From a virus: 25,814 bases of DNA. Of the stretch, positions 1 to 15,135 are shown in pieces. The DNA is taken from the IMG/VR virus record IMGVR_UViG_3300017786_000119, positions 1-25,814 of that record. One strand, 5' to 3'. The first letter of the stretch is position 1. The number at the start of each line of letters is the position of its first letter. The position numbers and the translations under genes were made by a program. The notes under the pieces are model-generated. The model was not told where the DNA came from. It worked only from the letters and a program-made list of their open reading frames with translations, and did not search any database.

Positions 1-1
1 T

Positions 2-490
2 AATAACAGATATGTATCTATACCAGCAGATTCTTTAATATTAAGATCTGTACAAGTTATTGATGGTTCAGGTAATAGAACTTTCATGGAAAAAAGAGAT
101 ACAAGTTATATATCAGAATTTAACGGCACAGGAGCTACAGGTACTCCTAAATATTACGCAAACTGGGATGATTTCAATATTCTAGTTGCACCAGTACCTG
201 CTACTGCTTTAGAAATACAAATAAATTATATAAAAGATCCACCAAATTTTACTTCTACTAATGAAACTTTTATAGCTAAATATCAAGAATCAATGTTACT
301 TCATGGTGTCTTAACTGAAGCATTTAGATTTTTAAAAGGTCCTATGGATATGTACAATCTTTACGAAAAGAAGTATAATGAGGAAGTACAGAATTTTGCC
401 CTACAACAAATGGGTAGAAGAAGACGAGCGGAGTATGATGATGGTGTACCTAGAGTACAAATACCTTCACCTACTCCAAACACAAATTAA
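2..490 (+). CDS. Head-tail adaptor protein, 5' end outside window
   Basis: The frame is open from base 2, so the gene starts before the window; the ATG at 86 is internal. The 163 visible residues have a beta-rich first part and a helical C-terminal half (from about PPNF, through LLHGVLTEAFRFLKGP, to LYEKKYNEEV) ending in a basic RRRR stretch. Phage adaptor proteins that join the portal ring to a short tail commonly show a helix of the form LLxxALxEAxxYLK followed by YxxxYxxxV, and I assign it on that basis. The virion genes downstream fit. The next gene follows after 15 bases with a clear ribosome site. The exact adaptor subfamily (SU10-type or T7 gp11-type) cannot be decided without a profile search. 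Confidence 0.65.
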   Translation, partial: NNRYVSIPADSLILRSVQVIDGSGNRTFMEKRDTSYISEFNGTGATGTPKYYANWDDFNILVAPVPATALEIQINYIKDPPNFTSTNETFIAKYQESMLLHGVLTEAFRFLKGPMDMYNLYEKKYNEEVQNFALQQMGRRRRAEYDDGVPRVQIPSPTPNTN

Positions 491-505
491 TTAAGGAGAA
501 TAATT

Positions 506-967
506 ATGGCAATAACAACAAATGCAATATGTGATACTTTTAAAAAAGAATTACTACAAGGAAGTCACGATTTTGATGCATCAACTGATACATACAAATT
601 AGCGATGTATACAAGTTCTGCAACTTTAGGAAAATCAACAGAAAACTACTCTACTAATCCAGGTGGTGGATCTAACACAGAGGTTACTTCAGCAAACTAC
701 ACAGCTGGTGGATCTGCTTTAGTAAACCAAGGTGTAAAAGTCTCATCTTCAGTAGCTATTACTGATTTTGCTGATTTAAGTTTTCAAAACGTAACTCTTA
801 CTGCAAGAGGTGCTTTAATTTATAACACAACTACAAACGGTGGTTCGAATACTACTGATGCAGTTGCTGTATTAGATTTTGGTGGTGACAAGACTGCAAC
901 TTCTGGAACATTTACTATTCAGTTCCCAGCTTTCACAACTTCGGCAGCTATATTAAGATTAGCATAA
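506..967 (+). CDS. Small virion structural protein of unknown role
   Basis: A protein of 153 residues, rich in Thr, Ser, Ala, Asn and Gly, with alternating beta-type patterns and no enzyme motif. It opens with a short helix (AICDTFKKELLQG) followed by DTYKLAMYTSSATLG, and its C-terminal half contains LTARGALIYNTTTNGG and VAVLDFGGDKTATSG. This looks like a family of roughly 150-residue proteins that recurs beside tail genes in marine phages. I believe it is structural (tail or head decoration), but no function is proven. A strong ribosome site (AAGGAGA) lies just upstream. It sits between the adaptor and the tail proteins. Confidence 0.6.
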   Translation: MAITTNAICDTFKKELLQGSHDFDASTDTYKLAMYTSSATLGKSTENYSTNPGGGSNTEVTSANYTAGGSALVNQGVKVSSSVAITDFADLSFQNVTLTARGALIYNTTTNGGSNTTDAVAVLDFGGDKTATSGTFTIQFPAFTTSAAILRLA

Positions 968-984
968 TTTGAGGTCCTGGAGCT

Positions 985-2346
985 ATGGCAGAGTATACTT
1001 ATACAGTAACCGTAGCTTCAGGTAACCTATACGGTGGTGGAACTGGTAACGTTTATTATTTAAACGGTGCTAGAAATGCAACTGGTCCTGGAACTGTAAA
1101 TTGGGTTCAAGGTGGAACCCTAAGATTTGAACAAAGTGCTGTATCAAATAACAATCACCCATTAATTTTTTCTACAACTACAAGTAGAGATCAATACCTT
1201 ACATCAGGGGTAACCTATTATTTAGATGGTGCCTCTAACTATGCAAGCTACGTAAACACAACAAGCTTTAATGCTGCTACTACTCGTTATGTAGAAATAA
1301 CACCATCTTCATCAACTGATTTTTATTATCTTTGTTATGTTCATGGTATTGGCATGGGTGGAATATTTGATATTGAATCAAATGTTTGGGGTGGACTATC
1401 TTGGGGTAATAGTGTTTGGGGAGACCAAGGACACATTGATGTATCAGTAACAGGAATATCATTAACATCAACTATTGGAAATGAAACTCACGTAATTGAT
1501 CATCAAGTAACTGCAGTTGGGCAACAACTAACTTCTACTATAGGTAGTGCAGCAGGAGGTACTTCAGCTTTAGTCTCAGTAACAGGAAGTTTAGAGTCTA
1601 TGGCAGTTGGACAAACTGTTGTAGGTATTGGTGCAATTACTTCTGGAATTTCAATGTCTTCTTCTATTGGAGCTACAACAGTAGATGAATCTATACTAAC
1701 TGGAGAAGGATGGGGTAGAGATGAATGGGGAAGTCTTGCTTGGGGTGTTAATTATTCAGTTGCGTTAACAGGACAAACTTTAACATCATCAATTGGAGAA
1801 GAAGCAGGATTTACTGATGTAACCGTCAGTGTTACAGGACAAACTTTAACATCTACACAAGGAATAATTTCATTAGTTGGAGATTTTGGAATAGTTGTTT
1901 TACCAGCAGAAGATCAATTAGATCTTACAATTGGTTCTGTAATTTTTGAAGCAGATGCAAATGTTACAGTAACAAGTGCAGGTTCTATGACTTCTCAAGT
2001 AGGAAATGCTGCAGGAGGTTTAAAAACACCTGTGGATGTAACTGGTATACAGATAACATCAACTTTAGGTACAATTGCCCTCGAACAAACTACTATTGAA
2101 ACAGTCACTGGACAACAGTTGACAATGTCTCTTGGCCAACATGCTGAAATTCCTGGTCAAATAATAGGTGTAGGAAGTTTACAATTAACAAGTTCCATAG
2201 GTTCTGTAACAACTTTTGGTACTGCAAATATAGACGTTACAGGCATACAAATGACTATATCTGCAGGAAGTGTTAATGTAACTCCATGGCAAGAAGTAAA
2301 TCCAGATGTAACTAATGTTTGGTCGGAGGTTGATCTAGCTGCTTAG
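985..2346 (+). CDS. Tail protein: cupredoxin-like N-terminus, then about ten VTG..LTSTIG repeats
   Basis: A protein of 453 residues in two parts. Residues 1-130 read as a beta-sandwich with the plastocyanin ligand order: H58 in NNNHPLIFS, then C117, H120 and M124 in LCYVHGIGMGG. In blue copper proteins His...Cys-x2-His-x2-4-Met binds one copper, so all four ligands appear present. Residues from about 145 to 425 hold about ten imperfect copies of a VTGxxLTSTIG unit every 20-35 residues, suggesting a repetitive beta fibre. Two Trp-Gly-rich stretches (133-147 and about 239-255) interrupt this pattern, and the end is Trp-rich (NVWSEVDLAA). A GGAG close to the ATG is the likely ribosome site. The tail-protein role is inferred from the repeats and from the fibre genes downstream. 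Copper binding is untested. Confidence 0.65.
   Translation: MAEYTYTVTVASGNLYGGGTGNVYYLNGARNATGPGTVNWVQGGTLRFEQSAVSNNNHPLIFSTTTSRDQYLTSGVTYYLDGASNYASYVNTTSFNAATTRYVEITPSSSTDFYYLCYVHGIGMGGIFDIESNVWGGLSWGNSVWGDQGHIDVSVTGISLTSTIGNETHVIDHQVTAVGQQLTSTIGSAAGGTSALVSVTGSLESMAVGQTVVGIGAITSGISMSSSIGATTVDESILTGEGWGRDEWGSLAWGVNYSVALTGQTLTSSIGEEAGFTDVTVSVTGQTLTSTQGIISLVGDFGIVVLPAEDQLDLTIGSVIFEADANVTVTSAGSMTSQVGNAAGGLKTPVDVTGIQITSTLGTIALEQTTIETVTGQQLTMSLGQHAEIPGQIIGVGSLQLTSSIGSVTTFGTANIDVTGIQMTISAGSVNVTPWQEVNPDVTNVWSEVDLAA
1768..1853 (+). repeat. Exact 20-base direct repeat within the tail-fibre repeat array
   Basis: Bases 1768-1787 and 1834-1853 are identical (beginning acaggacaaa and ending ttaacatc). 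They are 66 bases apart, so they are in frame, and both encode TGQTLTS. They are the least diverged pair of the roughly ten VTGxxLTSTIG protein repeats, which suggests recent unit duplication or recombination within the gene. Confidence 0.8.
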
Positions 2347-2384
2347 ATAAGTTAAAATAATAATCATTTAGGAGATAAAAAATT

Positions 2385-3398
2385 ATGGCATCAAGTTATT
2401 CGACAGATCTTAAACTAGAACTTATGGTTACTGGTGAAAATGCTGGTACATGGGGAGATAAAACAAACGCAAATTTAAATTTAGTACAACAAGCTATAGC
2501 AGGTTTTGAAGCTGTAACAGTAAATGGTACAGGTGCTACTGCATTAGCTATGACTGATGCAACTATTTCAAATGCAAGAAATGCAGTTGTAAAATTAACT
2601 GGTACAATAACCGGAAATATTGATGTAACAATTCCAAATTCAATTGAAAAAACATATGTAATTCAAAATGGAACAACAGGTGCTCACACAGTTACATTTA
2701 AAACTGTTGGTGGAACTGGATTTACTTTTTCAGCTACAGAAAAAAATATAGCTTTATGTTATTCAGATGGAACTAATATTGTAGAAATTTCTAATCAATT
2801 AACAGGACTTACAGTTGGGACGGATGTTCAAGCTTATGATGCTGGTCTTACAGATATTGCAGGATTAGCTACCACAGATTCAAACATAATTGTTGGAAGC
2901 GGATCTAATTGGGTTGCTGAAACAGGAGCTACTGCTAGAACTTCTTTAGGATTAGGAACTGCATCAGATGTTCAATTTGATTCTTTTGGTGTAGGTACAG
3001 CAGCCTCAGGAACAGCTGGTGAAATTAGAGCTACTAATGATGTTACTGCATTTTACTCTGATAGAAGATTAAAAAATATTTCTGGTAATATACCAAATTC
3101 TTTAGAAAAAATTTTAAGTTTGAATGGTGTTCATTATACAAATAATGAAGTTGCACACAAACATGGTTATTCAAATACTAACAGACAAGTAGGAGTAATA
3201 GCTCAAGAAGTAGAAAGTATTCTTCCTGAAATAGTTAAACCAGCTCCTTTTGATATAGGTCAAAAAGAAGATGGATCTGAATACTCAATTTCTGGAGAAA
3301 ACTACAAAACAGTTCAATACGAAAAGTTAGTTCCTTTATTAATTGAAGGCATAAAAGAACTAAACAAAAAAATAGAGGAGATGAAAAATAATGGATAA
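2385..3398 (+). CDS. Tail fibre with C-terminal S74 self-cleaving chaperone domain
   Basis: A protein of 337 residues. The N-terminus (TDLKLELMVTGENAGTWGDK) is a common phage fibre opening. The middle, residues 138-200, has the fibre-type sequence VQAYDAGLTDIAGL followed by ARTSLGLGTASD. The end, from about 222, is a Peptidase_S74 intramolecular chaperone. It shows the SDRRLK motif (S225, D226, K230), then QVGVIAQEVESILPE, YKTVQYEKLVPLLIEGIKEL and a terminal coiled coil. In characterised members the domain trimerises the fibre and then cuts itself off at the Ser-Asp bond using the Ser/Lys pair. Both residues are present, so cleavage here after S225 is likely, releasing about 112 residues. AGGAGA precedes the start. 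It overlaps the next gene by 8 bases. Confidence 0.88.
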   Translation: MASSYSTDLKLELMVTGENAGTWGDKTNANLNLVQQAIAGFEAVTVNGTGATALAMTDATISNARNAVVKLTGTITGNIDVTIPNSIEKTYVIQNGTTGAHTVTFKTVGGTGFTFSATEKNIALCYSDGTNIVEISNQLTGLTVGTDVQAYDAGLTDIAGLATTDSNIIVGSGSNWVAETGATARTSLGLGTASDVQFDSFGVGTAASGTAGEIRATNDVTAFYSDRRLKNISGNIPNSLEKILSLNGVHYTNNEVAHKHGYSNTNRQVGVIAQEVESILPEIVKPAPFDIGQKEDGSEYSISGENYKTVQYEKLVPLLIEGIKELNKKIEEMKNNG

Positions 3399-4407
3399 TC
3401 ACACATGGGAAATTCTTTCTCTTTATACTATTCCAAGTAAAGACGGTTTAACAAATATTGTTGATAAAATTAATTGGAGATTTCAAATTACAGAAGATAA
3501 ATACTATGGTGATGTGTATGGTCACACAAAACTTCCAGCACCTACAGGTGGTTCTTTTACAGCTTATGATGATTTAACAGAAGAAACAATTATTAATTGG
3601 GTTAAAGAACATGAAGATGGTGATGCAATTATTGCTCAAGCTACAGCTAAATTGGAAAAAAATAAAGCTCCATCAATGGTAGAAAAAAATCCACCTTGGA
3701 CATATCCTATAACTACAGATGGTACAGAAGAGTATATGGTTGTTATAGATAATTTACCAAATGACTTACAAAAAATATATGGCCCTTTAAGATGGAACTC
3801 AGTAAAAATAAATGAAGGTTTAAAACTAAGAGGTTTTGATGATTTATCTGTTCCAGATACTATGATTGCTTTTAGAAAAGGTTTAATACCTTCAGACGAA
3901 CCGTTAGTTCTTAAAGATAATGTTAAGATTTATAAAGTTCAAGAACAAGCACAACCTACTTTTGATGAGCTGACTCAAATTAGAGAAAATTTAACTTATG
4001 ATACTTCATCTGGAATATGTGTAGGAACTTACAATATAGTTAATAAATCTTTGGATGAAGTTAAAGCATCGGTTAAAGAAAGAGCTAAAGAAGAAAGAAT
4101 AGGTTTATCTTTTCAAACACATACAATGTCTTTAAACGGAACTGATCATAAAGTTAACATAGAAGAACAAAGCAATATTACTACTAATAATAGAGCTAGT
4201 GTAATGAGTGATTCAGATACGGTCAATTGGAAACTAGAAGATTCTTGGATTGTTGCAACTAAAGCTGATTTAATGTCTATTAATAATTTTGTAATGTCCA
4301 AAAGACAAGAAATTTTTGATGGAGAACACACTAGAAGTCAAGAGATTGATGCGTGTACTACAACAGATGAATTAAAAACTATTTATAACTCAATTACGGT
4401 ATTATAA
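3391..4407 (+). CDS. Tail-fibre-associated protein with DUF4376-like C-terminus
   Basis: A protein of 338 residues. The first about 90 residues (MDNHTWEILSLYTIP, then LTEETIINWVKEH) resemble a small domain often found at the start of short marine-phage virion proteins. The C-terminal third, from about residue 215 to 333, fits the DUF4376 pattern of many phage fibre and fibre-assembly proteins. It shows NTTNNRASVMSDSD-like spacing, then NWKLEDSWIVA, a helix with MSKRQEIFDGEHTRSQEID, and ACTTTDELKTI. The start overlaps the end of the S74 fibre gene, which suggests coupled translation and a role with that fibre. No enzyme motif was seen. The function (baseplate or fibre component, or assembly factor) is inferred. 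Confidence 0.55.
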   Translation: MDNHTWEILSLYTIPSKDGLTNIVDKINWRFQITEDKYYGDVYGHTKLPAPTGGSFTAYDDLTEETIINWVKEHEDGDAIIAQATAKLEKNKAPSMVEKNPPWTYPITTDGTEEYMVVIDNLPNDLQKIYGPLRWNSVKINEGLKLRGFDDLSVPDTMIAFRKGLIPSDEPLVLKDNVKIYKVQEQAQPTFDELTQIRENLTYDTSSGICVGTYNIVNKSLDEVKASVKERAKEERIGLSFQTHTMSLNGTDHKVNIEEQSNITTNNRASVMSDSDTVNWKLEDSWIVATKADLMSINNFVMSKRQEIFDGEHTRSQEIDACTTTDELKTIYNSITVL

Positions 4408-4408
4408 T

Positions 4409-5071
4409 ATGACACTTCCAGCTTCAGGACCAATAACATTTGGCAATGTTAACACTGAATTAGGAAACAGTGCAACAGCTGCTCTTAATTTAGGCTCGGC
4501 TTCAGTTAGATCTTTATTCGGTGTAGCTTCAGGAGCTATTAAATTAACAGACGGTTATGGATGCGCTAGTATTCCCGCACCAGGTGCATCAGACTTAGGC
4601 GTCTATTGTTCTGATTGGGGAGGATATTATACAGGAGTTTCTCAAGGATATTATCTTTACACAGATACAACAACAGTAGGTTGTCAATACAAAGTTAATT
4701 TATCAAGTAGTCCTTGTGCAGCTAGTTTTACTGACGGTTACTCCAACACCTACAATGGTGGATACAATTCAGATTCAGATCATCCAGCCATGTGTTACGC
4801 AGGTAGTTTAAGTCGTGCTGGATTTACAGATTGGTATAATGCATCAGGTGCTCTTTCAGCAGGTGAAGAGTTACAAAATCAATGGCTTAATAGAAGTTGT
4901 GGAAGTATACCCGCTTACGGAAGTGGAGGTTATTGGTCTTCTGCGCAAATTTCAAATGGCTATAGAGGATGGGGAGTATGTTTTGCAACTGGTTCAGTGA
5001 GTGATTGTGCTAGTCCAAGAAAAACATGTACTTGTTGTGTTAGAGCAATAAGAAGACAATCAGGAGCTTAA
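4409..5071 (+). CDS. Cys-rich tail protein with C-type-lectin-like (DUF1566/Lcl) domain, candidate receptor binder
   Basis: A protein of 220 residues. The N-terminal 50 residues (LPASGPITFGNVNTELG, ASVRSLFGVASGAIKL) match a short module that begins many marine phage tail proteins and probably anchors to the tail. The rest fits the DUF1566/Lcl_C type of C-type-lectin fold: GFTDWYNASGALSAGEEL (138-155), GGYWSSAQ (173-180), WGVCFATG (188-195) and the closing VRAIRR (211-216). There are eleven cysteines (52, 67, 92, 103, 129, 164, 191, 200, 207, 209, 210), far more than in neighbouring proteins. It begins two bases after the previous stop and is the last gene before the enzyme cassette. Receptor binding is inferred from the fold and position. 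Confidence 0.6.
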   Translation: MTLPASGPITFGNVNTELGNSATAALNLGSASVRSLFGVASGAIKLTDGYGCASIPAPGASDLGVYCSDWGGYYTGVSQGYYLYTDTTTVGCQYKVNLSSSPCAASFTDGYSNTYNGGYNSDSDHPAMCYAGSLSRAGFTDWYNASGALSAGEELQNQWLNRSCGSIPAYGSGGYWSSAQISNGYRGWGVCFATGSVSDCASPRKTCTCCVRAIRRQSGA

Positions 5072-5082
5072 TAATACATTTG

Positions 5083-5110
5083 TTGCGAAACTAAGATAAA
5101 GTGGTATAAA
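5083..5110 (+). promoter_or_regulatory. Possible sigma70-type promoter for the enzyme cassette
   Basis: TTGCGA (5083-5088) and TATAAA (5105-5110) are separated by 16 bases, matching the -35 and -10 consensus at 4 of 6 and 5 of 6 positions. It lies in the 49-base gap after the lectin-like gene, the largest gap before the cassette. Transcription would begin near 5117, about four bases before the ATG at 5121, giving a nearly leaderless message. This agrees with a run of T and no ribosome site before that ATG. In AT-rich DNA such matches arise by chance. Confidence 0.35.
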
Positions 5111-5120
5111 GTATTTTTTT

Positions 5121-6059
5121 ATGAATACTACTTTTATTCTTACGGGAGGAGCGGGAAGAACTGTTTGCGCTATTCCAGCTTTAGAAAAATATGCAAGATT
5201 AAATCCTAACGATGATTTTAAAATAATAACACACGGGTGGGATGTATTTTTTTGGAGCAATCCAATCTTACAACAAAAAACATTTAATCAAAATCAAAAA
5301 GGTTTATTCGACATTATAATTAAAAACAGTAAAGTTAACATGGTAGAGCCTTACCATGTTCATGAGTTTTTTAATGAAAAGATATCTTTAATAGAAGCTT
5401 TTGATGTGTGTATTAATAATACACATGATCATTCTGATCTAAAAGATAAGGGCTATCTCTATCTTTCTGAGTATGAAAAAAAATCAGCTAAACAGTATGT
5501 TAAAGAAGAAAAATTAAAAAAAAGAAAAAAGTATGTTGTAATGACACAACCTTACGGTTCGGGAGTTGAGATACTAGATGGTGCTCCACATGATGATACA
5601 AGTAGAAGTTTAGAGCATGATCATTACCATGAACTTCTTAATTATTTAAAAGATGATTCTGTAGTGTTATATGCAAGCCACGACAAATTTAAAAGAACAG
5701 GAGACGACTCGGTTTCTTTTGAAAACATACATCCTTTACTTCCTTATTTAAGAATTATGATGGCTTTAATTTCTGAATGCGATTATTTTATTGGTTGCGA
5801 TTCTTTAGGACAACATATTGCAAAAGCATTTGGTAAAAAGGGGTTAATAATTATGGGTGCTACAGGAGATGTTTGTTTTAGTTATCCAAAAGATTTCACT
5901 ATATATAGAAAAGCAATTCCAAAATTTTTTCCTTGGAGACTAGCAGACCCTGACGCAATGTTTGCTGCTAGATTAAATGATAATATGATGCAATTTAATC
6001 AAGAACAGAAAAAAGAAATAAATAATATTATTGATAAAGAATTAAGACATAAATTTTAA
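5121..6059 (+). CDS. GT9-like (heptosyltransferase-type, GT-B) glycosyltransferase
   Basis: A protein of 312 residues. The N-terminus has a Gly-rich loop after the first strand (ILTGGAGRTVCAIPALEKYA), and the C-terminal half has the pattern ISECDYFIGCDSLGQHIAKAFG followed by LIIMGATGD. GT9 enzymes (ADP-heptose:LPS heptosyltransferases) show the same arrangement: a GD/GG loop with a downstream PAL helix, and later a D-S-x-x-x-H-x-A-x-A donor-site motif before a VxLFG strand. The donor sugar and acceptor cannot be read from the sequence. There is no Shine-Dalgarno sequence; a possible promoter lies directly upstream. It is the first gene of a six-gene cassette and its TAA overlaps the ATG of the next gene. 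Confidence 0.65.
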   Translation: MNTTFILTGGAGRTVCAIPALEKYARLNPNDDFKIITHGWDVFFWSNPILQQKTFNQNQKGLFDIIIKNSKVNMVEPYHVHEFFNEKISLIEAFDVCINNTHDHSDLKDKGYLYLSEYEKKSAKQYVKEEKLKKRKKYVVMTQPYGSGVEILDGAPHDDTSRSLEHDHYHELLNYLKDDSVVLYASHDKFKRTGDDSVSFENIHPLLPYLRIMMALISECDYFIGCDSLGQHIAKAFGKKGLIIMGATGDVCFSYPKDFTIYRKAIPKFFPWRLADPDAMFAARLNDNMMQFNQEQKKEINNIIDKELRHKF

Positions 6060-6598
6060 TGAAAACAGTTGTATTGGATAATCTTATTTCAGAAAAAGAA
6101 TTATTTTTTATGTACAATGAAATTATAAACACCCCTAATTGGAGAGTTAATAACGCATCTACTGAGCAACGTGGTTTTCTAACAGGTCCAATACTAGTAG
6201 TTAAAAAAACAGAAAATTCAATGGTAGAACATTATCCTTTTTTAATTTGGGGACAAGTTTTAGTTCTTAGAATCGCTAAATTACTTGAAGAAAAAAATAT
6301 AGGAATACCAACTGAGTTAAATAGGATGTGGTTTAACACTACATACAACGGAAAGAAAACTCAACATTGGCTTCATAATGATGGTCATGGAGATGCAGAA
6401 ACAAAATCAATTGTTGTATTCATGACACCTGTTTGGCAGCCAGATTGGAGGGGGTCTTTTTATATTGATGGTGAAGAACATAAGTATAAACCAGGTAGTG
6501 CTATTATATTTGATTCAAAAGAATTTCATCGAGGTGAATCTCCTGAGTCAGAAACATATAACTGGCAAAGAATGGTGTGTAATATTTTAGTTAAATGA
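6059..6598 (+). CDS. 2OG-Fe(II) oxygenase, prolyl-4-hydroxylase-like
   Basis: A protein of 179 residues with the double-stranded beta-helix signature. The iron ligands are H106 and D108 (WLHNDGHG) and distal H157 (EFHRGE), with R171 (WQRMVCNIL) as the 2-oxoglutarate carboxylate-binding residue. GSAIIFDS before the distal His is typical. Such enzymes hydroxylate a carbon on a peptide, sugar or small molecule, using O2 and 2-oxoglutarate. They are frequent in marine phage genomes and their substrates are mostly unknown. The start uses the TAATG overlap with the glycosyltransferase gene, and the end overlaps the sulfotransferase start as ATGA, so the three are probably translated together. Confidence 0.85.
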   Translation: MKTVVLDNLISEKELFFMYNEIINTPNWRVNNASTEQRGFLTGPILVVKKTENSMVEHYPFLIWGQVLVLRIAKLLEEKNIGIPTELNRMWFNTTYNGKKTQHWLHNDGHGDAETKSIVVFMTPVWQPDWRGSFYIDGEEHKYKPGSAIIFDSKEFHRGESPESETYNWQRMVCNILVK

Positions 6599-7371
6599 AA
6601 AAACATTATTTTATATCAGGGTTACCTAGATCAGGGTCAACTTTATTAACAGCTATTTTAAATCAAAACCCAAACTTTTATTCTGATATAGCATCTCCGT
6701 TACAAGATATGTTAGAAAATACTATTACATATATGTCGGAAACAGATTATTCTATAAATATAAATTCAGAACAACGTGAAAATGTTTTAAAACATATTGT
6801 TGAGGGGTATTATAAAGATACTGTAAATGAAACAATATTTGATTCATCAAGAGCATGGACAGGAAATACTTCGTTACTTAAATCATTATTTCCATATACT
6901 AAAATTATTTGCTGTGTACGAGATATAAATTGGATACTTGATTCTTTTGAAAAAGTTTTTAATAAAAATATTTATTACAAAAATTTCTTTTTTGGTAAGG
7001 AGGCAGAACCTTCTGTTGTAACCAGATGTAAATCTTTAATGGATGTAGAAAAAGAAGGACAAGTAATAAAACCTTGGCTATGGTTAAAGGAAGGTCTTTG
7101 TTTAAATAAAGATATGATTCATTTAATAGAATACAACGATCTTTGTTTGGAACCTGAAAAAACAATTAAAGGTGTTTATGATTTTATTGGTTACCCATAT
7201 TTTTATCATGATTTTAATAATGTAGAATATTCAAATAATTTATTTGATCTACATATTAACACACCTAATTTACATAAAGTAACAGGAAAAGTAGAATATA
7301 AACCTAGAGAAATTTTACTACCCTATGAGGTTACTCAAACATATAAAGGAATGGAATTTTGGAGAAAGTAA
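6595..7371 (+). CDS. PAPS-dependent sulfotransferase
   Basis: A protein of 258 residues. The 5'-phosphosulfate-binding loop is clear at the N-terminus: FISGLPRSGSTLL (residues 7-18, PRSGST at 11-16). The 3'-phosphate-binding element follows as CCVRDINWILDSF, with R109 and S117 spaced R-x7-S as in known sulfotransferases. Family members transfer the sulfuryl group from PAPS to a hydroxyl or amine on sugars, proteins or small molecules. Both PAPS sites are intact, so activity is plausible; the acceptor is unknown. The next gene begins with a kinase domain of the type that makes PAPS. Its start overlaps the upstream oxygenase (ATGA), and its stop directly abuts the next ATG. Confidence 0.85.
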   Translation: MKKHYFISGLPRSGSTLLTAILNQNPNFYSDIASPLQDMLENTITYMSETDYSININSEQRENVLKHIVEGYYKDTVNETIFDSSRAWTGNTSLLKSLFPYTKIICCVRDINWILDSFEKVFNKNIYYKNFFFGKEAEPSVVTRCKSLMDVEKEGQVIKPWLWLKEGLCLNKDMIHLIEYNDLCLEPEKTIKGVYDFIGYPYFYHDFNNVEYSNNLFDLHINTPNLHKVTGKVEYKPREILLPYEVTQTYKGMEFWRK

Positions 7372-8310
7372 ATGAAAATTATTTTAATAATGGGATTACC
7401 GGGATCTGGCAAAACTACTTTAGCAAATAAGCTAGGCCCGATGCTTAATGCAAAAATATTAAACGCAGACGAAGTAAGAAAAAAATTTGATGATTGGGAT
7501 TTTTCTCACGAAGGTAGAGTAAGACAAGCCAAAAGGATGGCAACTTTAGCAAATAAATTTAAAAATCGAGGAGAGTATGTTGTGGCAGATTTTATTTGCC
7601 CCACACTAGAGACAAGAGAATTGTTTCCTGCTGATTATATAGTTTGGGTAAATACAATAAAAGAAGGACGTTTTGAAGATACTAATAAGATGTTTGTAAA
7701 GCCTGAAGTATTTGATCTTCAAGTAACAACACAAGATGTTGAAAAATGGGTATTAGAAATAACATCCAATATAAATAAAAATTATAAAATTTACAAAAAC
7801 TTTGTAAGTATTGAAGAGTGTAATATTTTATCTAATTGGATTATAGAAAATAAGGACGATACTTTTTTTAAGGATGCTAAAATGAAAGGTAAAAGATTAA
7901 CTACTAGATACTCTGATAACTTTGTATTTCCTAAACTTGCTTATGGAATACAAAATAAAATTATTAAAAAATTAAATTTAAAAAATTATTATTTAGCTAA
8001 TTTTAAAGATGGTATGGTTGCTAGTTATGCAGAGCCTGGAGATACCTGTTATATACATAAAGACCCAGTTTGGGTAGAAGATACTATAACACTTCATTGT
8101 AATATAAAATTATCAGATCATATGGGAGGTAGTCCTATCATTGAAGGTAAAGAAATAAATTTAAACAAAGGAGATATGTGGCTTTATCCTGTATCTGATG
8201 TTAATCACGGATCTAATATAGTTAAGGGAATTAGTCCAAGAACATTATGGATATTTGGTTTTTCTATACTCAAACAAAATATAAAAGAAGTTATGAATAA
8301 TGATTGTTGA
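7372..8310 (+). CDS. Fusion: APS-kinase-like P-loop kinase plus 2OG-Fe(II) oxygenase
   Basis: A protein of 312 residues in two domains. Residues 1 to about 130 are a P-loop kinase: Walker A GLPGSGKTT (8-16), NADEVR (31-36), DWDFSHEGRVRQAKRM (41-56), VVADFICPT (70-78) and FEDTNKMF (101-108). These align in order with CysC, which has DGDNVR, FS..DR..N.RR., and an AFISP strand, though the first motif is NADEVR, not DGDN. APS kinase makes PAPS from APS and ATP. Residues from about 138 are a 2OG-Fe(II) oxygenase with H229/D231 (YIHKDP), distal H279 (VNHGSN) and R290 (SPRTLW). The stretch between domains is short and the frame is continuous, so this is a true fusion. Kinase substrate identity is uncertain; gene order beside a sulfotransferase favours APS. 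The 3' end overlaps the next gene by 11 bases. Confidence 0.8.
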   Translation: MKIILIMGLPGSGKTTLANKLGPMLNAKILNADEVRKKFDDWDFSHEGRVRQAKRMATLANKFKNRGEYVVADFICPTLETRELFPADYIVWVNTIKEGRFEDTNKMFVKPEVFDLQVTTQDVEKWVLEITSNINKNYKIYKNFVSIEECNILSNWIIENKDDTFFKDAKMKGKRLTTRYSDNFVFPKLAYGIQNKIIKKLNLKNYYLANFKDGMVASYAEPGDTCYIHKDPVWVEDTITLHCNIKLSDHMGGSPIIEGKEINLNKGDMWLYPVSDVNHGSNIVKGISPRTLWIFGFSILKQNIKEVMNNDC

Positions 8311-9127
8311 TAAAAATAATTATAATTTAGATGTATTTACAAGTTCTAAAACTGTTGGTAACTATTGGAAAGATTGTGAAAAAGAATGTAAATTTTTAGA
8401 ACTATTTAAAGATTGTTCTATTGATAGTGTTAACTGTTTTTTTGATGAGGCTCGAGGTAATGTTTTAACTTTAATATCAAAAGAAAATACTGAGGAAGAT
8501 AATTTAAGAGCAACAATTAATTTTAATCAAGACATATCTTTTTTTGTAAATAATTCTTGGGAAGATTATCAAAGAGAGTGCATGCTTTTAGAGTCAATTA
8601 AAAATTGTTCTATTGAAGGTGTTGTTTGTGAGTTTGGTGTATTAAAAGGTAAAACATTAAATTTAATAGCAAAAAACTTTCTTAACCAAAAAGTTTATGG
8701 CTTTGATAGTTTTGAAGGATTACCTGAGGATTGGCATCTTACAGATGAAAACGTATTTGAAAAAGGTAGAATGAAAATAAATAGTTTACCTAAAGTTAAT
8801 TCTAATGTGGAGCTGGTGGTGGGGTGGTATCATAAAACGATACCCGAGTGGAAGAAAACATTTAAAGATAATATTAAATTTATTCATATTGATTGCGATT
8901 TGTACAGTAGTACGTCAACAATTTTTGAACAGTTAAACAATCAAATAGTAAATGGTACTGTAATTCAGTTTGATGATTTTTATAATTGGAAAAATTTATC
9001 TAATTATACAAAATGGAGACAGGGTATATATAAAGCATTACTAGAGTGGACAGAAAAATTTAATAGAAAATTTACTGTCGTTGGAAGAAGCAATCATGTT
9101 CAAACTACAATAAAAATAATTCACTAA
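8300..9127 (+). CDS. TylF-like SAM-dependent methyltransferase with duplicated N-terminal region
   Basis: A protein of 275 residues. The class I methyltransferase core is at 105-275: motif I VVCEFGVLKGKTL (108-120), the acidic ribose-binding strand VYGFDSFEGLPEDW (132-145, D136), FIHIDCDLY (194-202) and VIQFDDFYNW (221-230, D225/D226). This is the layout of macrocin O-methyltransferase (TylF) relatives, which methylate sugar hydroxyls. Residues 21-61 are a second, degraded copy of 85-125 (19 of 41 identical), in which the SAM loop has become FFDEARGN. There is one unbroken frame. The ATG at 8300 lies within the previous gene; there is no clear ribosome site. The sugar substrate is inferred from the family and from the neighbouring glycosyltransferase. 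Confidence 0.78.
   Translation: MIVDKNNYNLDVFTSSKTVGNYWKDCEKECKFLELFKDCSIDSVNCFFDEARGNVLTLISKENTEEDNLRATINFNQDISFFVNNSWEDYQRECMLLESIKNCSIEGVVCEFGVLKGKTLNLIAKNFLNQKVYGFDSFEGLPEDWHLTDENVFEKGRMKINSLPKVNSNVELVVGWYHKTIPEWKKTFKDNIKFIHIDCDLYSSTSTIFEQLNNQIVNGTVIQFDDFYNWKNLSNYTKWRQGIYKALLEWTEKFNRKFTVVGRSNHVQTTIKIIH
8360..8674 (+). repeat. Imperfect direct duplication inside the methyltransferase gene
   Basis: The segment encoding residues 21-61 (8360-8482) is repeated at residues 85-125 (8552-8674), 192 bases on. Protein identity is 19 of 41 by eye, with all positions aligned and no gaps. Shared features include W/D/EC spacing, KxCSI and VxCxF...G...L.LI.K. DNA identity is clearest at attgttctattga. 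The second copy keeps the SAM-binding loop; the first has lost it. Confidence 0.8.
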
Positions 9128-9756
9128 TGAGAAACGATATTTGGCCCTTATTCTCTAAAACAATGTATGTAACTGATGTAATACTTAATCAGGATGAGGA
9201 AAGTAAATTAAATAAAATCTATGACAATATAGAGTTTAGCAAAGCTAGGAGAAATGCAGAACATAATAAAAGTTGTGAAATATCTAAAGAGTTAAGGTTG
9301 TTTCAATGCCATCCCTTAACTTTTCTAGAAGAAAAAATAATGGAAAGATTCCATAACTTTTCTAAAAATATTATGCATTATGATAATAATTTTATAATAA
9401 CTAATTCTTGGTTTACAAAAACACATAAAGGTCAGGAAAGTATGTTACATGCACATAAAAACCATATGTACAGTATGGTGTATTATTGGGGTAACGAAGA
9501 AACTGAAGATAATAAGATTGAATTTAAAAATTACAATTCGGCAACAAGTTTTAATTTAAGCACTAAAGAAAAAAACATATATAATTCTGATGAATATGGG
9601 TTTAAGGTAAATAACGGTATGTTAATTGTTTTTCCAACAGAAGTACATCATATGATCTTAGAAAATAAAAATAACAGCATTAGAAAATCAATGGCTATGA
9701 ATCTATTACCTACTGGTACTATTGGTACGGGTGATAGTGCAGTAGAACTTAGGTAA
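9127..9756 (+). CDS. Putative 2OG-Fe(II) oxygenase, TIGR02466-like, unusual HxH site
   Basis: A protein of 209 residues. Typical family elements are SWFTKTHKGQ (94-103), HAHKNHMYSMVYYW (108-121), GMLIVFPTEVHHMI (164-177), R186 (SIRKSMAMNL) and the closing LLPTGTIGTGDS. The distal His is H174 or H175 and the 2-oxoglutarate Arg is probably R186. At the first iron site the sequence is H108-A-H110, followed by N112 and H113, where many oxygenases have HxD. Whether H110 or H113 is the second ligand cannot be settled by eye. It starts by TAATG overlap with the methyltransferase gene and is the last gene of the cassette. It is likely a hydroxylase of a protein or glycan, but an inactive or altered-metal form is possible. 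Confidence 0.65.
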   Translation: MRNDIWPLFSKTMYVTDVILNQDEESKLNKIYDNIEFSKARRNAEHNKSCEISKELRLFQCHPLTFLEEKIMERFHNFSKNIMHYDNNFIITNSWFTKTHKGQESMLHAHKNHMYSMVYYWGNEETEDNKIEFKNYNSATSFNLSTKEKNIYNSDEYGFKVNNGMLIVFPTEVHHMILENKNNSIRKSMAMNLLPTGTIGTGDSAVELR

Positions 9757-9777: not shown

Positions 9778-11934
9778 ATGCCTCTAACAAAAGTACAAAT
9801 AGCACCCGGATTTAACAAACAAGTAACCGCAACAGGCGCAGAAGGTAAGTGGACTGACGGAGACTTTGTAAGGTTTAGATATGGATTACCTGAAAAAATA
9901 GGTGGTTGGGAGCAACTTGTTAACGCATCTTTAGTAGGTGCAGCAAGAGAACAGTTTATTTGGGCTGATTTAGACGGCAGAAGATATGCTGCAATAGGCA
10001 CAAACAAAATTTTAATTATTTATTATGAAAGTGCTTTTTACGACATAACACCTTTAGGCACAGCTATTACCGGTTGTACATTCGACACTGTAAATACTTC
10101 GGCTACCGTTACTATCAACAAAGCAGCACACACATTACAACCTGGAGATCTTTTCACATTTACTTCAGTGACACCTCCAACAGGTGCTGGATACAGTTCT
10201 TCAGATTTTGAAACAAATACTTTTCAAGTAGTCACTGTTCCCGATAGTGATTCTTTTACTATTACAATGGCTAGCGCAGCAGGGACAACGGTAAACGGAA
10301 GTGGATCTGCAACAATCAATCCGTACATTAGTGCAGGTGCTTTAGGATTTACTTACGGTTTTGGTTGGGGAACAGGATTATGGGCCGGAGGACAACAAGT
10401 ATTTGGAACTCTTAACGGAAATTTATTAGATGACACAGCAGGTACTGGAGGATCTGGGACTTCGATTACACTTGCATCAACAACTGGTTTTCCAACATCA
10501 GGAACAATTAAAGTTGGAACAGAATTTATATCTTATACAGGCATATCAACAAATGATCTAACAGGGATTACCAGAGGTGCTGGAGGCACTAGATCTGCTC
10601 ATACGTCTGGGTCTGGTGTTGAATATTACACTGGTTGGGGAGAAGCTTCTTTATCTTCAAGTTTAACAATAGATCCTGCATCTTGGTCTTTAGATAATTT
10701 TGGAGAAAAATTAATAGCTACTATTAAAAATGGTAAAACATTTGAATGGAATCCAATCAACTCAAACCCTAATGCCTTAAGTACAAGAGCAACTATTGTA
10801 AGTAGTTCACCAACAGCATCTGTGATGTCTTTAGTATCGGATAGAGATAGACATTTATTAATGTTAGGTACAGAAACAACTATTGGAGATGAATCTACTC
10901 AAGACAAGATGTTTATAAGATTTAGTGACCAAGAAAATATAAGTGACTACTCACCAACTTCAGTAAACACTGCAGGTACCTTTAGAATAGATGCTGGTAC
11001 AAAAATAGTAGGAGCTGTAAAAGGAAAAGATTATACTTTTGTTTTAACTGATAACTCAGCTTACGTAATTCAATTTGTAGGACCTCCGTTTACTTTCTCA
11101 ATAAGACAAGTAGGTTCTAACTGTGGAGCAATTGGACAGCATTCTATTAAATATGTTAATGGTGCTGTTTATTGGATGGGAGAATCTGGTGGATTCTTTA
11201 CTTACGATGGTACTGTTAAATCTTTACCATGCCAAGTCGAAGACTTTGTATTCACAAATAAGGGAGATAACCTTGGAGTTAATTATCAAAACGGTGAATC
11301 AGTATATGTAGGTCTTAATCATTTATATGAAGAACTTACTTGGTTTTATCCAAAATCAGGTTCATCATTTAATGATAGATGTGTTACTTATAATTATCAA
11401 AGCGCAACTTGGACAACGGGATCCTTATCAAGGACTACTTGGACAGATGCTAATTTATATGATGTTCCTTATGCAACTGAATTTAACTCAACAACAACAC
11501 CAACCTTTCCTTTAATACAGGGTGTAACAAATATAAACGGTGGAAGTATTTATTACGCTCACGAAGTTGGAACAGATCAAGTAGATACCGCAGGTGCGAA
11601 GACTATAATCCCAGCATTTATAGAATCTGGGGACTTTAGTTTAAACCCTGACGGAACTAATGCAGAATTTTTCATGAGTATGAGAAGATTTGTACCAGAT
11701 TTTAAATTACTTCAAGGTAATGCACAAGTTACTATTCAATTAAGAGATTATCCAAGTGACGCCGAGGTATCCTCACCGCTAGGACCTTTTACAATAACAT
11801 CAACTACTGATAAGATAGACACGAGAGCTAGAGCAAGATTTGCTAGTTTAAAAATTGCAAACACTAGTACAGACGAAAATTGGAGATTTGGAACTTTTAG
11901 AGCTGATGTACAACTTGATGGTATGAGAGGATAA
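9778..11934 (+). CDS. Tail nozzle or DNA-stabilisation protein with two inserted beta domains
   Basis: A protein of 718 residues. The opening (VQIAPGFNKQVTATGAEGKW, then DGDFVRFRYGLPEKIGGWEQL and GRRYAAIGTNKIL) and later parts (VVGAVKGKD-like strands, FTYDGTVKSLPCQVEDFVF, a long beta-rich C-terminus) fit the large phage proteins that form a short-tail nozzle or close the DNA channel (P22 gp10 or T7 gp12 role). Two modules interrupt the core. Residues about 97-183 (NKAAHTLQPGDLFTF...FQVVTVPDSDSFTI) look like a small FCCH-type beta domain. Residues about 213-286 (ITLASTTGFPTSGTIKVG, LTGITRGAGGTRSAHTSG) match a module found in many unrelated phage tail proteins. An AAGG lies upstream of the ATG. 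It overlaps the next gene (TAATG). Confidence 0.6.
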   Translation: MPLTKVQIAPGFNKQVTATGAEGKWTDGDFVRFRYGLPEKIGGWEQLVNASLVGAAREQFIWADLDGRRYAAIGTNKILIIYYESAFYDITPLGTAITGCTFDTVNTSATVTINKAAHTLQPGDLFTFTSVTPPTGAGYSSSDFETNTFQVVTVPDSDSFTITMASAAGTTVNGSGSATINPYISAGALGFTYGFGWGTGLWAGGQQVFGTLNGNLLDDTAGTGGSGTSITLASTTGFPTSGTIKVGTEFISYTGISTNDLTGITRGAGGTRSAHTSGSGVEYYTGWGEASLSSSLTIDPASWSLDNFGEKLIATIKNGKTFEWNPINSNPNALSTRATIVSSSPTASVMSLVSDRDRHLLMLGTETTIGDESTQDKMFIRFSDQENISDYSPTSVNTAGTFRIDAGTKIVGAVKGKDYTFVLTDNSAYVIQFVGPPFTFSIRQVGSNCGAIGQHSIKYVNGAVYWMGESGGFFTYDGTVKSLPCQVEDFVFTNKGDNLGVNYQNGESVYVGLNHLYEELTWFYPKSGSSFNDRCVTYNYQSATWTTGSLSRTTWTDANLYDVPYATEFNSTTTPTFPLIQGVTNINGGSIYYAHEVGTDQVDTAGAKTIIPAFIESGDFSLNPDGTNAEFFMSMRRFVPDFKLLQGNAQVTIQLRDYPSDAEVSSPLGPFTITSTTDKIDTRARARFASLKIANTSTDENWRFGTFRADVQLDGMRG

Positions 11935-13141: not shown

Positions 13142-13338
13142 GTGATTTAATTAAAATACCCGCAGAAGCAAAAGAAATTATTAAACATAAAAGAACAGGT
13201 AAAGTATATGCTAGTAAAGCTGATTTTGATAATGATGTTGCTGATGCCAATACTGATACTACTGTGGATGACTTTAGACAAGACCTTGAAATTAAAGTTA
13301 CAAAAGCTGGTGAAATTGGAGCTTTAACTAAAAAATAA
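13138..13338 (+). CDS. 66-residue protein of unknown function
   Basis: The protein has a Lys-rich N-terminal half (IPAEAKEIIKHKRTGKVYAS) that reads as helix-turn-strand, then an Asp/Thr-rich acidic stretch (DFDNDVADANTDTTVDD) and a short amphipathic end (LEIKVTKAGEIGALTKK). The HKRTGKVYASKADFDNDV pattern may be a small metal- or nucleic-acid-contacting domain, but I do not recognise it. It is linked by ATGA to the basic protein upstream and by TAATG to the glycosyltransferase downstream. Its partner may be the basic 44-residue protein, since the two are opposite in overall charge pattern; that is a guess. Confidence 0.65.
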   Translation: MSDLIKIPAEAKEIIKHKRTGKVYASKADFDNDVADANTDTTVDDFRQDLEIKVTKAGEIGALTKK

Positions 13339-14273
13339 TGCAACCCCGAGGAGCTACTGAGCTACAGATGGAAATGCTTCAAAAGCATGTTTCAAAAGAG
13401 TTGTTAGACCAAGTTCAAATCTGTACCTCTATCCCTGGTAAAGTTTCATTAGATCCAAAAAAATTAAATATTCTCTGGCAAAAGAATTCTTGGGACCAAC
13501 CTAACCTACAAGAATTTTTTACTAATAAAGAAAGACATGGTGAATATGATTGGTATGTATTTAATAGTCATTGGAATTACGAAAAGTTTAGGTATGCTTT
13601 TGATATCCCTACTGAAAAATCTTTAGTTATTAAAAATGGTATTGATACTTTTCCTATAAGAAAAATTTATAAAAGAGGAACTCCAATAAAATTAATACGT
13701 CACTGCACTCCATGGAGAGGTTTAAATGTATTGTTACGTGCAATGCAGGAGATAGATAACCCTCATATAAAATTAGATGTATATAGTTCTTGTAAAGTCT
13801 ATGGATCTGAGTTTTCAGATAACACTGAAAAAGATTTTGAAGGATTATATAAACAGGCTGAGAAACTACCTAACGTAAATTATATTGGTTACAAACCTCA
13901 TGAATACATAAAAGAAATGATGCCTAATTATGATATGTTTGTGTACCCATCTATATTTGAAGAAACTTCTTGTGCATCAGCTTTAGAAGCTTTAGCATCT
14001 GGTGTACATGTAATAACTAATAATTTTGGAGCTTTATATGAGACTTGTGCAGAGTGGCCAGTATATATTAATTACTCAAAAAATTATGAACAGATGGCAC
14101 AAGATACAGGAGCGGCTATCAATGTTGCAGCATCTTATTTACATGAAAATTTTATGCAAGAACACCTACAACATCAACAAGACTTTTATAAGAGATTTTA
14201 TAACTGGGAAAAAAAGGGTATAGAATGGACAAACTTTTTGAAAGGAGCTTTAAATGAAAGAAACAGTAAATGA
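13338..14273 (+). CDS. GT4-type (GT-B) glycosyltransferase
   Basis: A protein of 311 residues. The C-terminal donor half is clear: IKLIRHCTPWRGLNVLLRAM (117-136), NYIGYKPHEYIKEMM (181-195), then YDMFVYPSIFEETSCASALEALASGVHVI (198-226). The last holds the EX7E motif E209...E217 that contacts the nucleotide sugar in retaining GT4 enzymes. The N-terminal half is short. The first residues (PRGATELQMEML) correspond to the loop after the first strand of most family members, so the first beta strand may be missing or the acceptor domain reduced. It starts by TAATG with the upstream gene and overlaps the next gene by 20 bases. The sugar is unknown. Confidence 0.8.
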   Translation: MQPRGATELQMEMLQKHVSKELLDQVQICTSIPGKVSLDPKKLNILWQKNSWDQPNLQEFFTNKERHGEYDWYVFNSHWNYEKFRYAFDIPTEKSLVIKNGIDTFPIRKIYKRGTPIKLIRHCTPWRGLNVLLRAMQEIDNPHIKLDVYSSCKVYGSEFSDNTEKDFEGLYKQAEKLPNVNYIGYKPHEYIKEMMPNYDMFVYPSIFEETSCASALEALASGVHVITNNFGALYETCAEWPVYINYSKNYEQMAQDTGAAINVAASYLHENFMQEHLQHQQDFYKRFYNWEKKGIEWTNFLKGALNERNSK

Positions 14274-15135
14274 AGACACTTATCAAACATTAAAAGAAGT
14301 TGAAGTAACACCATACGAAAAAGCTACTCTTCCTATGTGGAAACCGGACACCGGACAAAAAGAAGAAAAGAAAACAACTAAGTCCCCTTATAACATTATG
14401 ATTTGTACACCTTGTCATAGTGGTGTAACTATGCATTACACACAAGCACTTTTAGAATTACAACAACTTTGTATAAAAAAAGGAATAAGAATTACCTTTA
14501 CTTTATTAAAATCTTCTTTGGTTACTCAAGGAAGAAACTTATGTGTTTCAGCTTTTTTAGAATCTAACTGCACACATATGTTATTTGTAGACTCCGATAT
14601 ATATTTTAGAGCAGAATCTATTATTAAAATGCTGGATTTAGACAAAGAACTAATATCTATTCCCTATCCCCTTAAAACTATGATGTGGGATAAACTTTAT
14701 AAAAAATGGAATGATGGTGAAGTTAAAAACGCTGGAGATATACATAGATGGCTAAACACATACCCAATGAAAGTAGCAGACGTTAATAAGATAACTTTAG
14801 ACAGTGGTGTTATGGAAGTTACACATAGTCCTACAGGATGTATGTTAATTAAAAGATCAGTGTTTGACAAGATGATAGAAAAATATCCAGATAAAAACAT
14901 AGTTCAAAAGACAGTCATAAATGGTGAGTATGTGGACAGACCTCATTTATGGAACTTTTTTGATTGTATACATGACCCTGATACTAAGACATATTTAGGT
15001 GAAGATTTTTCTTTTTGTAAGCTTTGGAAAGATATCGGAGGAAAATGTTATGTCTTTGTGAATGACCCAATCATCCATGTTGGAGAACATCAATACGAAG
15101 GATGTTTTAGAGACGAGTTGAAATTAGCTGACTAA
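14254..15135 (+). CDS. GT-A-fold glycosyltransferase-like protein
   Basis: A protein of 293 residues. After a disordered charged first 45 residues, the core starts with NIMICTPCHSGVTMHYTQAL. It has THMLFVDSDIYF (107-118) with the DxD metal/nucleotide-sugar motif D113-S-D115, SPTGCMLIKRSVF, and YLGEDFSFCKLWKDIGG (247-263) with an acidic E250-D251 pair. IIHVGEHQYEG (273-283) supplies two His near the end. This matches the layout of GT2/GT-A transferases (DxD, then an ED base region, then a distal His). There are six Cys in or near the core. It is paired with the GT4 gene by a 20-base overlap. A ribosome site is visible as AAAGGAG inside the upstream gene (14240-14246). Confidence 0.7.
   Translation: MKETVNEDTYQTLKEVEVTPYEKATLPMWKPDTGQKEEKKTTKSPYNIMICTPCHSGVTMHYTQALLELQQLCIKKGIRITFTLLKSSLVTQGRNLCVSAFLESNCTHMLFVDSDIYFRAESIIKMLDLDKELISIPYPLKTMMWDKLYKKWNDGEVKNAGDIHRWLNTYPMKVADVNKITLDSGVMEVTHSPTGCMLIKRSVFDKMIEKYPDKNIVQKTVINGEYVDRPHLWNFFDCIHDPDTKTYLGEDFSFCKLWKDIGGKCYVFVNDPIIHVGEHQYEGCFRDELKLAD

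Follow-up and report, generated by a model that had tools for sequence, protein, structure and literature searches.

What does a phage modify with a set of enzymes encoded between its tail fibre genes and its tail nozzle gene? The question is raised by a 25.8-kb IMG/VR virus contig (IMGVR_UViG_3300017786_000119, positions 1–25,814; this whole stretch is called the window here), in which six plus-strand genes at 5121–9756 follow one another without gaps, all of them abutting or overlapping according to their open reading frame (ORF) coordinates, as the initial annotation had stated. The cassette encodes a GT9-like glycosyltransferase, a sulfotransferase (ST) of the type that uses 3′-phosphoadenosine-5′-phosphosulfate (PAPS), a kinase domain (KIN) resembling adenosine-5′-phosphosulfate (APS) kinases, a TylF-like methyltransferase and three putative 2-oxoglutarate (2OG)-Fe(II) oxygenases (OxyA, OxyB and OxyC), of which OxyB is fused to KIN. 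It lies, as was also claimed, between receptor-binding genes, including a fibre with a Peptidase_S74 domain, and the nozzle gene (Table 1). We read the cassette, at about even odds, as one form of a modification island at the tail genes, variable in content and centred on sulfation, that would act on a fibre-tied substrate.

The sulfotransferase is of the PAPS-dependent type by profile, motifs and fold. It scores 61.9 bits against Sulfotransfer_3 (cut-off 27) and carries both of the PAPS sites ascribed to it, a 5′-phosphosulfate-binding (5′-PSB) motif, GLPRSGST, and a 3′-phosphate-binding (3′-PB) motif, R109...S117; across an alignment of 52 sequences these motifs are invariant or nearly so, with R12, G14, T16, R109 and S117 fully invariant. 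A structure model with a predicted local distance difference test (pLDDT) score of 91.6 finds tyrosylprotein sulfotransferases as its best PDB matches (8e-10), and these occupy the top 13 places, followed by heparan-type enzymes, with STs bound to 3′-phosphoadenosine-5′-phosphate (PAP) among the fold matches. The similarity to tyrosylprotein sulfotransferases is distant (template modelling (TM) score ~0.58, 16% identity, sequence match only E 0.04), and by eye no catalytic glutamate, a feature of those enzymes, stands at the equivalent place after the 5′-PSB loop of ST; TM-scores near 0.58, taken from a model, do not fix the ST substrate.

ST is repeatedly found together with KIN. We compared three sets of viral loci, 80 fetched by ST (with KIN disregarded), 87 by KIN and 159 by tail genes (nozzle or fibre). 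KIN is present in 55 of the 80 ST-fetched loci versus none of the tail-gene loci, ST in 19 of the 87 KIN-fetched loci versus 3 of the 159, and ST is the family most often found next to viral KINs. The two genes form 53 direct pairs, with an exact 4-bp overlap in 42. On a tree of 108 KIN domains, built from few columns and with a rough bootstrap, the pair label changes 10 times, and well-supported branches force at least four gains or losses of the pairing. In an unrelated example, a Rhodoferax plasmid, ST directly follows a tail fibre assembly gene and again overlaps the next gene, KIN, by 4 bp, with chaperone and ST domains found there, and on Rhizobium sp. 007 and Cupriavidus plasmids ST lies ~6 kb or less from KIN. 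The initial annotation had proposed looking for co-occurrence of the two families, as opposed to genes scattered with no such tendency; ST and KIN do co-occur, behind tail-fibre genes, and genome comparison supports the view that they form a unit. In the window, this unit was probably assembled separately, from two sources, since KIN nests with chromosomal SAR11 kinases on the tree (support 97/83), to which it is up to 75–77% identical, while ST is closest to other viral STs (57–60% identity).

A second linkage connects ST with GT9, which is present in 22 of the 80 ST loci versus none of the 159 tail-gene loci; 15 of these 22 belong to the 25 ST loci that lack KIN. Homologues of the window GT9 occur in three ST loci, L011, L347 and L401. 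In contig L347, fibre genes are joined by an OxyC-like gene and several that look like glycosyltransferases, as well as by GT9 (9e-87), a 2OG oxygenase and an ST that immediately precedes neck-like genes, and in L401 a 2OG_5 oxygenase, ST, GT9 and a carbamoyltransferase come after fibre-like genes. L011 is a 259-kb contig in which positions 1–8426 form one 8-kb run of two STs, GT9, a carbamoyltransferase, GT1, more glycosyltransferase-like genes and KIN. In L300, L309 and L326, ST is fused to a C-terminal part that looks GT9-like by eye. These fused proteins (L300:6364-8217, L309:4921-6693 and L326:5994-7835) are 590–617 aa long, have a GT9/TPR-like C-terminal part and are flanked by fibre genes, RCC1-like or other.

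KIN is best described as APS-kinase-like. It matches Pfam APS_kinase with 41.9 bits (cut-off 21.1) over residues 3–83 of the 312-aa ORF, and a fold model of the family (made for homologue L288, not for the window protein) finds only APS kinases or PAPS synthetases among its top 37 PDB matches. Residues D33, R36, F44 and R49 of KIN are invariant in the family alignment, and we take them to align with the APS-contacting positions of APS kinases. Where ST adjoins, KIN likely forms PAPS: it would do so beside the sulfotransferase, probably drawing on cellular ATP and APS. ST would work alongside GT9, the TylF-type methyltransferase and the 2OG oxygenases and transfer sulfate to a hydroxyl of a substrate linked to the tail fibre, most likely the fibre protein or a sugar that it bears. 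The order of these steps and their target, like the production of PAPS, are what we infer.

The remaining cassette enzymes were assigned with varying ease. Pfam searches concur with the families first proposed for GT9, ST, KIN, TylF and OxyC, with GT9 being marginal (23.5 bits, cut-off 22, C-terminal half only). The methyltransferase scores 50.9 bits (cut-off 23) over TylF profile positions 83–238 and distantly matches CalS11, a sugar O-methyltransferase in the PDB. The claim of three 2OG oxygenases held by profile for OxyC (42.6 bits, cut-off 27); OxyA and OxyB passed no 2OG profile in Pfam and PHROG searches, and their facial-triad HxD/H/R residues were read by eye only. OxyA was assigned from its PHROG match, and OxyB, which has no Pfam match at all, from these residues and from free-standing homologues (L005 and L004, 70–76% identity) that start at the fusion point. 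The KIN-OxyB fusion is real, because a second contig carries it and the free-standing OxyB genes begin where OxyB is joined to KIN. An independent oxygenase-kinase fusion with the opposite domain order was seen at L311:9049-9999 and L321:9099-9992: here an oxygenase-like domain at the N-terminus continues into a degenerate KIN domain, and the fusion gene stands immediately between the genes for ST and for an intact KIN-nucleotidyltransferase. A role in DNA modification was rejected, as the cassette has no DNA-modification enzyme; the label 'DNA endonuclease V' of PHROG 274, the family matched by OxyA, is a family name and not evidence for such a role.

Is the cassette then a conserved system? 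The whole of it recurs in a contig from another sample (IMGVR_UViG_3300017771_000075, L003) with 4632 of 4636 bases identical (4 differences), and therefore it is not an assembly accident. The full six-gene set was found only in these two near-identical contigs, and the expectation that the same gene order would be met in other genomes as a system was rejected. Parts of the cassette occur near the nozzle gene elsewhere, with OxyB and the methyltransferase retained in L004 and the methyltransferase alone in L027. In 87 related loci holding both border genes, the stretch from fibre to nozzle measures 0–8.2 kb and holds 0–14 genes, whose proteins fall into 284 clusters at 60% identity. Among 128 representatives, 40 match 2OG-FeII_Oxy_3 and 17 match 2OG-FeII_Oxy_5 (some maybe both), 3 are tryptophan-halogenase-like, 2 are carbamoyltransferases and 2 are sulfotransferases; domains of the tail chaperone, collar and glycine-rich fibre types are also found there. 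Among these relatives, then, the site is an enzyme island of varying content, of which the cassette is one instance. The initial proposal is thus supported in part: an ST-KIN unit stands behind fibre genes, the phosphorylation of APS by KIN and the decorated molecule are predictions, and the six genes do not form a conserved set.

Two further observations concern relatives. The tryptophan-halogenase-like genes of the island (L152:5783-7258, L139:6047-7519 and L111:8869-10116; Pfam 8e-83 to 6e-110) lie among 2OG oxygenase genes. Genes at L174:10295-10915 (HTVC023P gp67) and L176:12051-12707 are annotated as putative ferrochelatase, a label that is unsupported, with no Pfam family matched at E 0.01.

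Table 1 Features of the cassette and its borders in the window
Position	Strand	Feature	Evidence
2385..3398	+	Tail fibre, C-terminal Peptidase_S74 chaperone domain; upstream border	Pfam S74 1.6e-13; PHROG tail fibre families
3391..4407	+	Fibre-associated, tail-fibre-assembly-like protein	Pfam DUF7936 2.7e-21; DUF4376 1.4e-4 (sub-threshold); PHROG tail fibre protein 1.3e-6
4409..5071	+	Short tail fibre	Tail-fibre N-terminus matching phage tail fibres; weak Lcl_C-like C-terminal domain
5121..6059	+	GT9-like (heptosyltransferase-type) glycosyltransferase	Pfam Glyco_transf_9 3.9e-5; PHROG 8954 1.1e-65
6059..6598	+	OxyA, 2OG-Fe(II)-type oxygenase (double-stranded beta-helix)	PHROG 274 5.9e-11; sub-threshold Cupin_2; HxD...H...R by eye
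6595..7371	+	ST, PAPS-dependent-type sulfotransferase (Sulfotransfer_3)	Pfam 1.4e-16; PAPS motifs; structure model
7372..8310	+	KIN-OxyB fusion, 312 aa: ~1-134 APS-kinase-like P-loop kinase, ~135-312 2OG-type oxygenase	Pfam APS_kinase 1.4e-10; free-standing OxyB homologues
8300..9127	+	TylF-like O-methyltransferase	Pfam TylF 1.7e-13
9127..9756	+	OxyC, 2OG-Fe(II) oxygenase, PF13759 type (2OG-FeII_Oxy_5)	Pfam 8.5e-11; PHROG 81 1.3e-28
9778..11934	+	Virion structural protein (tail nozzle-like), downstream border	PHROG 3287 6e-87; 61% identity to HTVC023P gp72

The window phage is a relative of HTVC023P-type pelagiphages, judging from shared structural genes and their order: its nozzle-like protein is 61% identical to that of Pelagibacter phage HTVC023P and 56% to that of HTVC027P, and the genes downstream of the nozzle are colinear with HTVC023P as far as a reverse-strand helicase. 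SAR11 is the presumed host, which the SAR11-like KIN supports. Downstream of the nozzle, at 13338–15135, the window holds two further sugar-type genes (GT1 group, PHROG 1574), with counterparts in the corresponding position of HTVC023P; in L011, relatives of each of the two stand beside ST.

Which structural protein might the cassette act on? The best candidate is the short fibre at 4409–5071, encoded by the structural gene closest to the cassette. An Lcl_C-type fibre lies upstream of 49 of 51 testable ST-KIN pairs, usually with one 140-aa gene between, and, within the stretches compared, a nozzle-family gene lies downstream in 22 of the 53 pairs and an adaptor-type gene upstream in 19. Such fibres were counted in 49 of 51 ST-selected, 0 of 68 KIN-only and 0 of 80 nozzle loci, and none was matched in the 159 relatives fetched by tail genes. 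The window fibre has no Pfam match, a search with it found only its own copy, and against a profile of Lcl_C fibres it matches in two weak pieces (7.1e-7). With that profile built from ST loci and most of the tested pairs being related, the link between Lcl_C fibres and ST-KIN pairs is suggestive only.

Several results weigh against the island reading with its sulfation core. Most of the 53 ST-KIN pairs come from related phages, as their STs form 36, 11 and 5 clusters at 95, 90 and 80% identity, and many pairs are hence kin. Isolated Pseudomonas phages carry Lcl_C fibres without ST, and the idea of an exclusive partnership was rejected. The remaining points concern the kinase. Against the NCBIfam apsK profile TIGR00455, KIN scores 34.6 bits, far below the cut-off of 138.7 and over residues 3–83 only, and family-wide the APS-kinase lid KGxYxxAR...FTGIDxPYExP is absent, with GR(F/Y)xDTNxxFxxP in its place. 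A nucleotidyltransferase, closest by sequence to nicotinamide mononucleotide (NMN) adenylyltransferases, is the partner of KIN, fused or adjoining, in 77 of 80 SAR11 loci and 68 of 86 viral loci. Lastly, among 22 large KIN-bearing phage contigs, ST is over its cut-off in 5 and absent from 15, and KIN must therefore have other roles or uses. Taken together with a NADAR-domain gene adjoining KIN in Stenotrophomonas phage Bhz60, the missing lid, the partner and the absent STs would fit a KIN that is not an APS kinase and instead phosphorylates a different nucleoside or small molecule, such as in a nicotinamide-riboside-type step with the nucleotidyltransferase, leaving ST to use host PAPS. This alternative concerns the kinase only, is compatible with either target and seems unlikely to us: the pairing with ST is repeated and tightly coupled, including in the 25 of 53 pairs that lack the nucleotidyltransferase, and the best sequence and fold matches of KIN are APS kinases. 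The window KIN protein itself has no nucleotidyltransferase domain and does not combine a kinase with an NMN adenylyltransferase as a NadR-like NAD salvage enzyme would, whereas its relatives have that domain.

The supply of host PAPS bears on the same alternative. Among 98 SAR11-family genomes, all draft assemblies, a sulfotransferase is over the cut-off in 33 and, in our own reading, strong in 22; of these 22, KIN is present in 15 and an ATP sulfurylase of either known type in only 3, so that ready-made host PAPS is not assured, which also speaks against a kinase unconnected with APS. The KIN-nucleotidyltransferase pair might be the PAPS source for SAR11 sulfotransferases. Across SAR11 genomes KIN accompanies strong STs (15 of 22 versus 23 of 76, p 0.002); genome size and kinship confound this trend, which vanishes in the largest genomes, and it counts as weak support only. 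No ST was found near KIN in 80 SAR11 KIN loci. Over all 98 genomes, a PF01747 or CysD ATP sulfurylase was seen in about a tenth and sulfotransferase genes in about a third. In 77 of the 80 SAR11 chromosomal loci (L186–L265), the partner of KIN is a 124-aa HxGH nucleotidyltransferase gene, and Rieske oxygenase and glycine-cleavage-T-like genes adjoin.

The target could also be the receptor and not the fibre. The enzymes would then sulfate, methylate and hydroxylate the host surface glycan bound by the fibre late in infection, with released virions avoiding debris and other phages being excluded, and the genes would travel with fibres since the two have to suit each other, as in seroconversion modules. 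We regard this as possible, if rather unlikely. GT9-type transferases normally act on lipopolysaccharide sugars, and the ST-GT9 linkage and fusions, like the STs of many SAR11 genomes, would suit a glycan of the host surface, for which linkage to fibres is equally expected; on the other hand, the genes lie inside the late structural block, the cassette has no membrane flippase, polymerase or acceptor-sugar pathway, and the closest solved STs act on protein tyrosines, a weak pointer. Ordinary metabolic cargo from a small-molecule or cell-wall pathway, placed at a permissive late-gene site with no link to the tail, would explain the variable content of the site and the AT-rich cassette (28.3% G+C versus 33.4% in the window), as expected for recent cargo. 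We consider it improbable, given that the same enzyme classes stand beside fibres in unrelated podoviruses, in the myovirus-like neck-gene contig L347 and in a plasmid-borne tail region, where the flanking genes differ.

How does the proposed sulfation island compare with described systems? Sugar-modifying enzymes beside tail or fibre genes are familiar from phage seroconversion and virion-glycosylation modules, which use glycosyl- or acetyltransferases; the cassette shares this placement, and our literature search found no description of a sulfation unit. HTVC023P (MN698239) and HTVC027P (MN698241) resemble the window in structural gene order, in the nozzle gene and in encoding several 2OG-Fe(II) oxygenases at the fibre-nozzle site or close to it; unlike the window, they showed no homologue of ST, KIN or GT9 in the regions compared. 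The co-located 2OG oxygenases of HTVC023P-type pelagiphages have already been described (Wittmers et al. 2022, PMC9599517), and a word search of that paper for sulfotransferase, adenylyl kinase, cysC and methyltransferase found none of them. Sulfotransferases of phages S-SKS1, S-SRM01, S-SCSM1 and OM43 phages belong to Sulfotransfer_3 like the window ST (30–34% identity), and no KIN relative turned up in these records, except for an oxygenase-domain match in S-SCSM1; the function of the OM43-phage sulfotransferase 'remains unclear' (PMC10580990). Among cellular enzymes, PAPS synthetase or CysC together with a sulfotransferase is the nearest likeness, in that an APS-kinase-fold P-loop kinase adjoins a user of PAPS, and KIN with a nucleotidyltransferase in one chain, as in many phages, has the domain order of animal PAPS synthetase. 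In contrast to these enzymes, the KIN lid is short and without FTGIDxPYE, the nucleotidyltransferase is NMN-adenylyltransferase-like and no canonical ATP sulfurylase is present. New here are the coupling of ST to KIN and the tail location of a real gene pair.

A broader possibility, which we hold to be distinctly unlikely, is that diverse phages carry a self-contained sulfation unit, made of ST and a non-canonical, short-lid PAPS-forming kinase that is often fused to a nucleotidyltransferase, maybe a minimal ATP sulfurylase, and sulfate their own fibres or a fibre glycan with it, and that SAR11 uses the same kinase-nucleotidyltransferase pair to make PAPS without a canonical ATP sulfurylase. 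The findings raise the question of where PAPS comes from in SAR11 cells that have sulfotransferases and no recognisable ATP sulfurylase. For phages, the tight link of ST to KIN, gained repeatedly, and to fibres turns recurrent sulfotransferases of unclear function into a testable claim, that tails or their receptors are sulfated; if true, this would add a new chemistry to the ways in which phages recognise receptors and compete in the commonest bacteria of the ocean.

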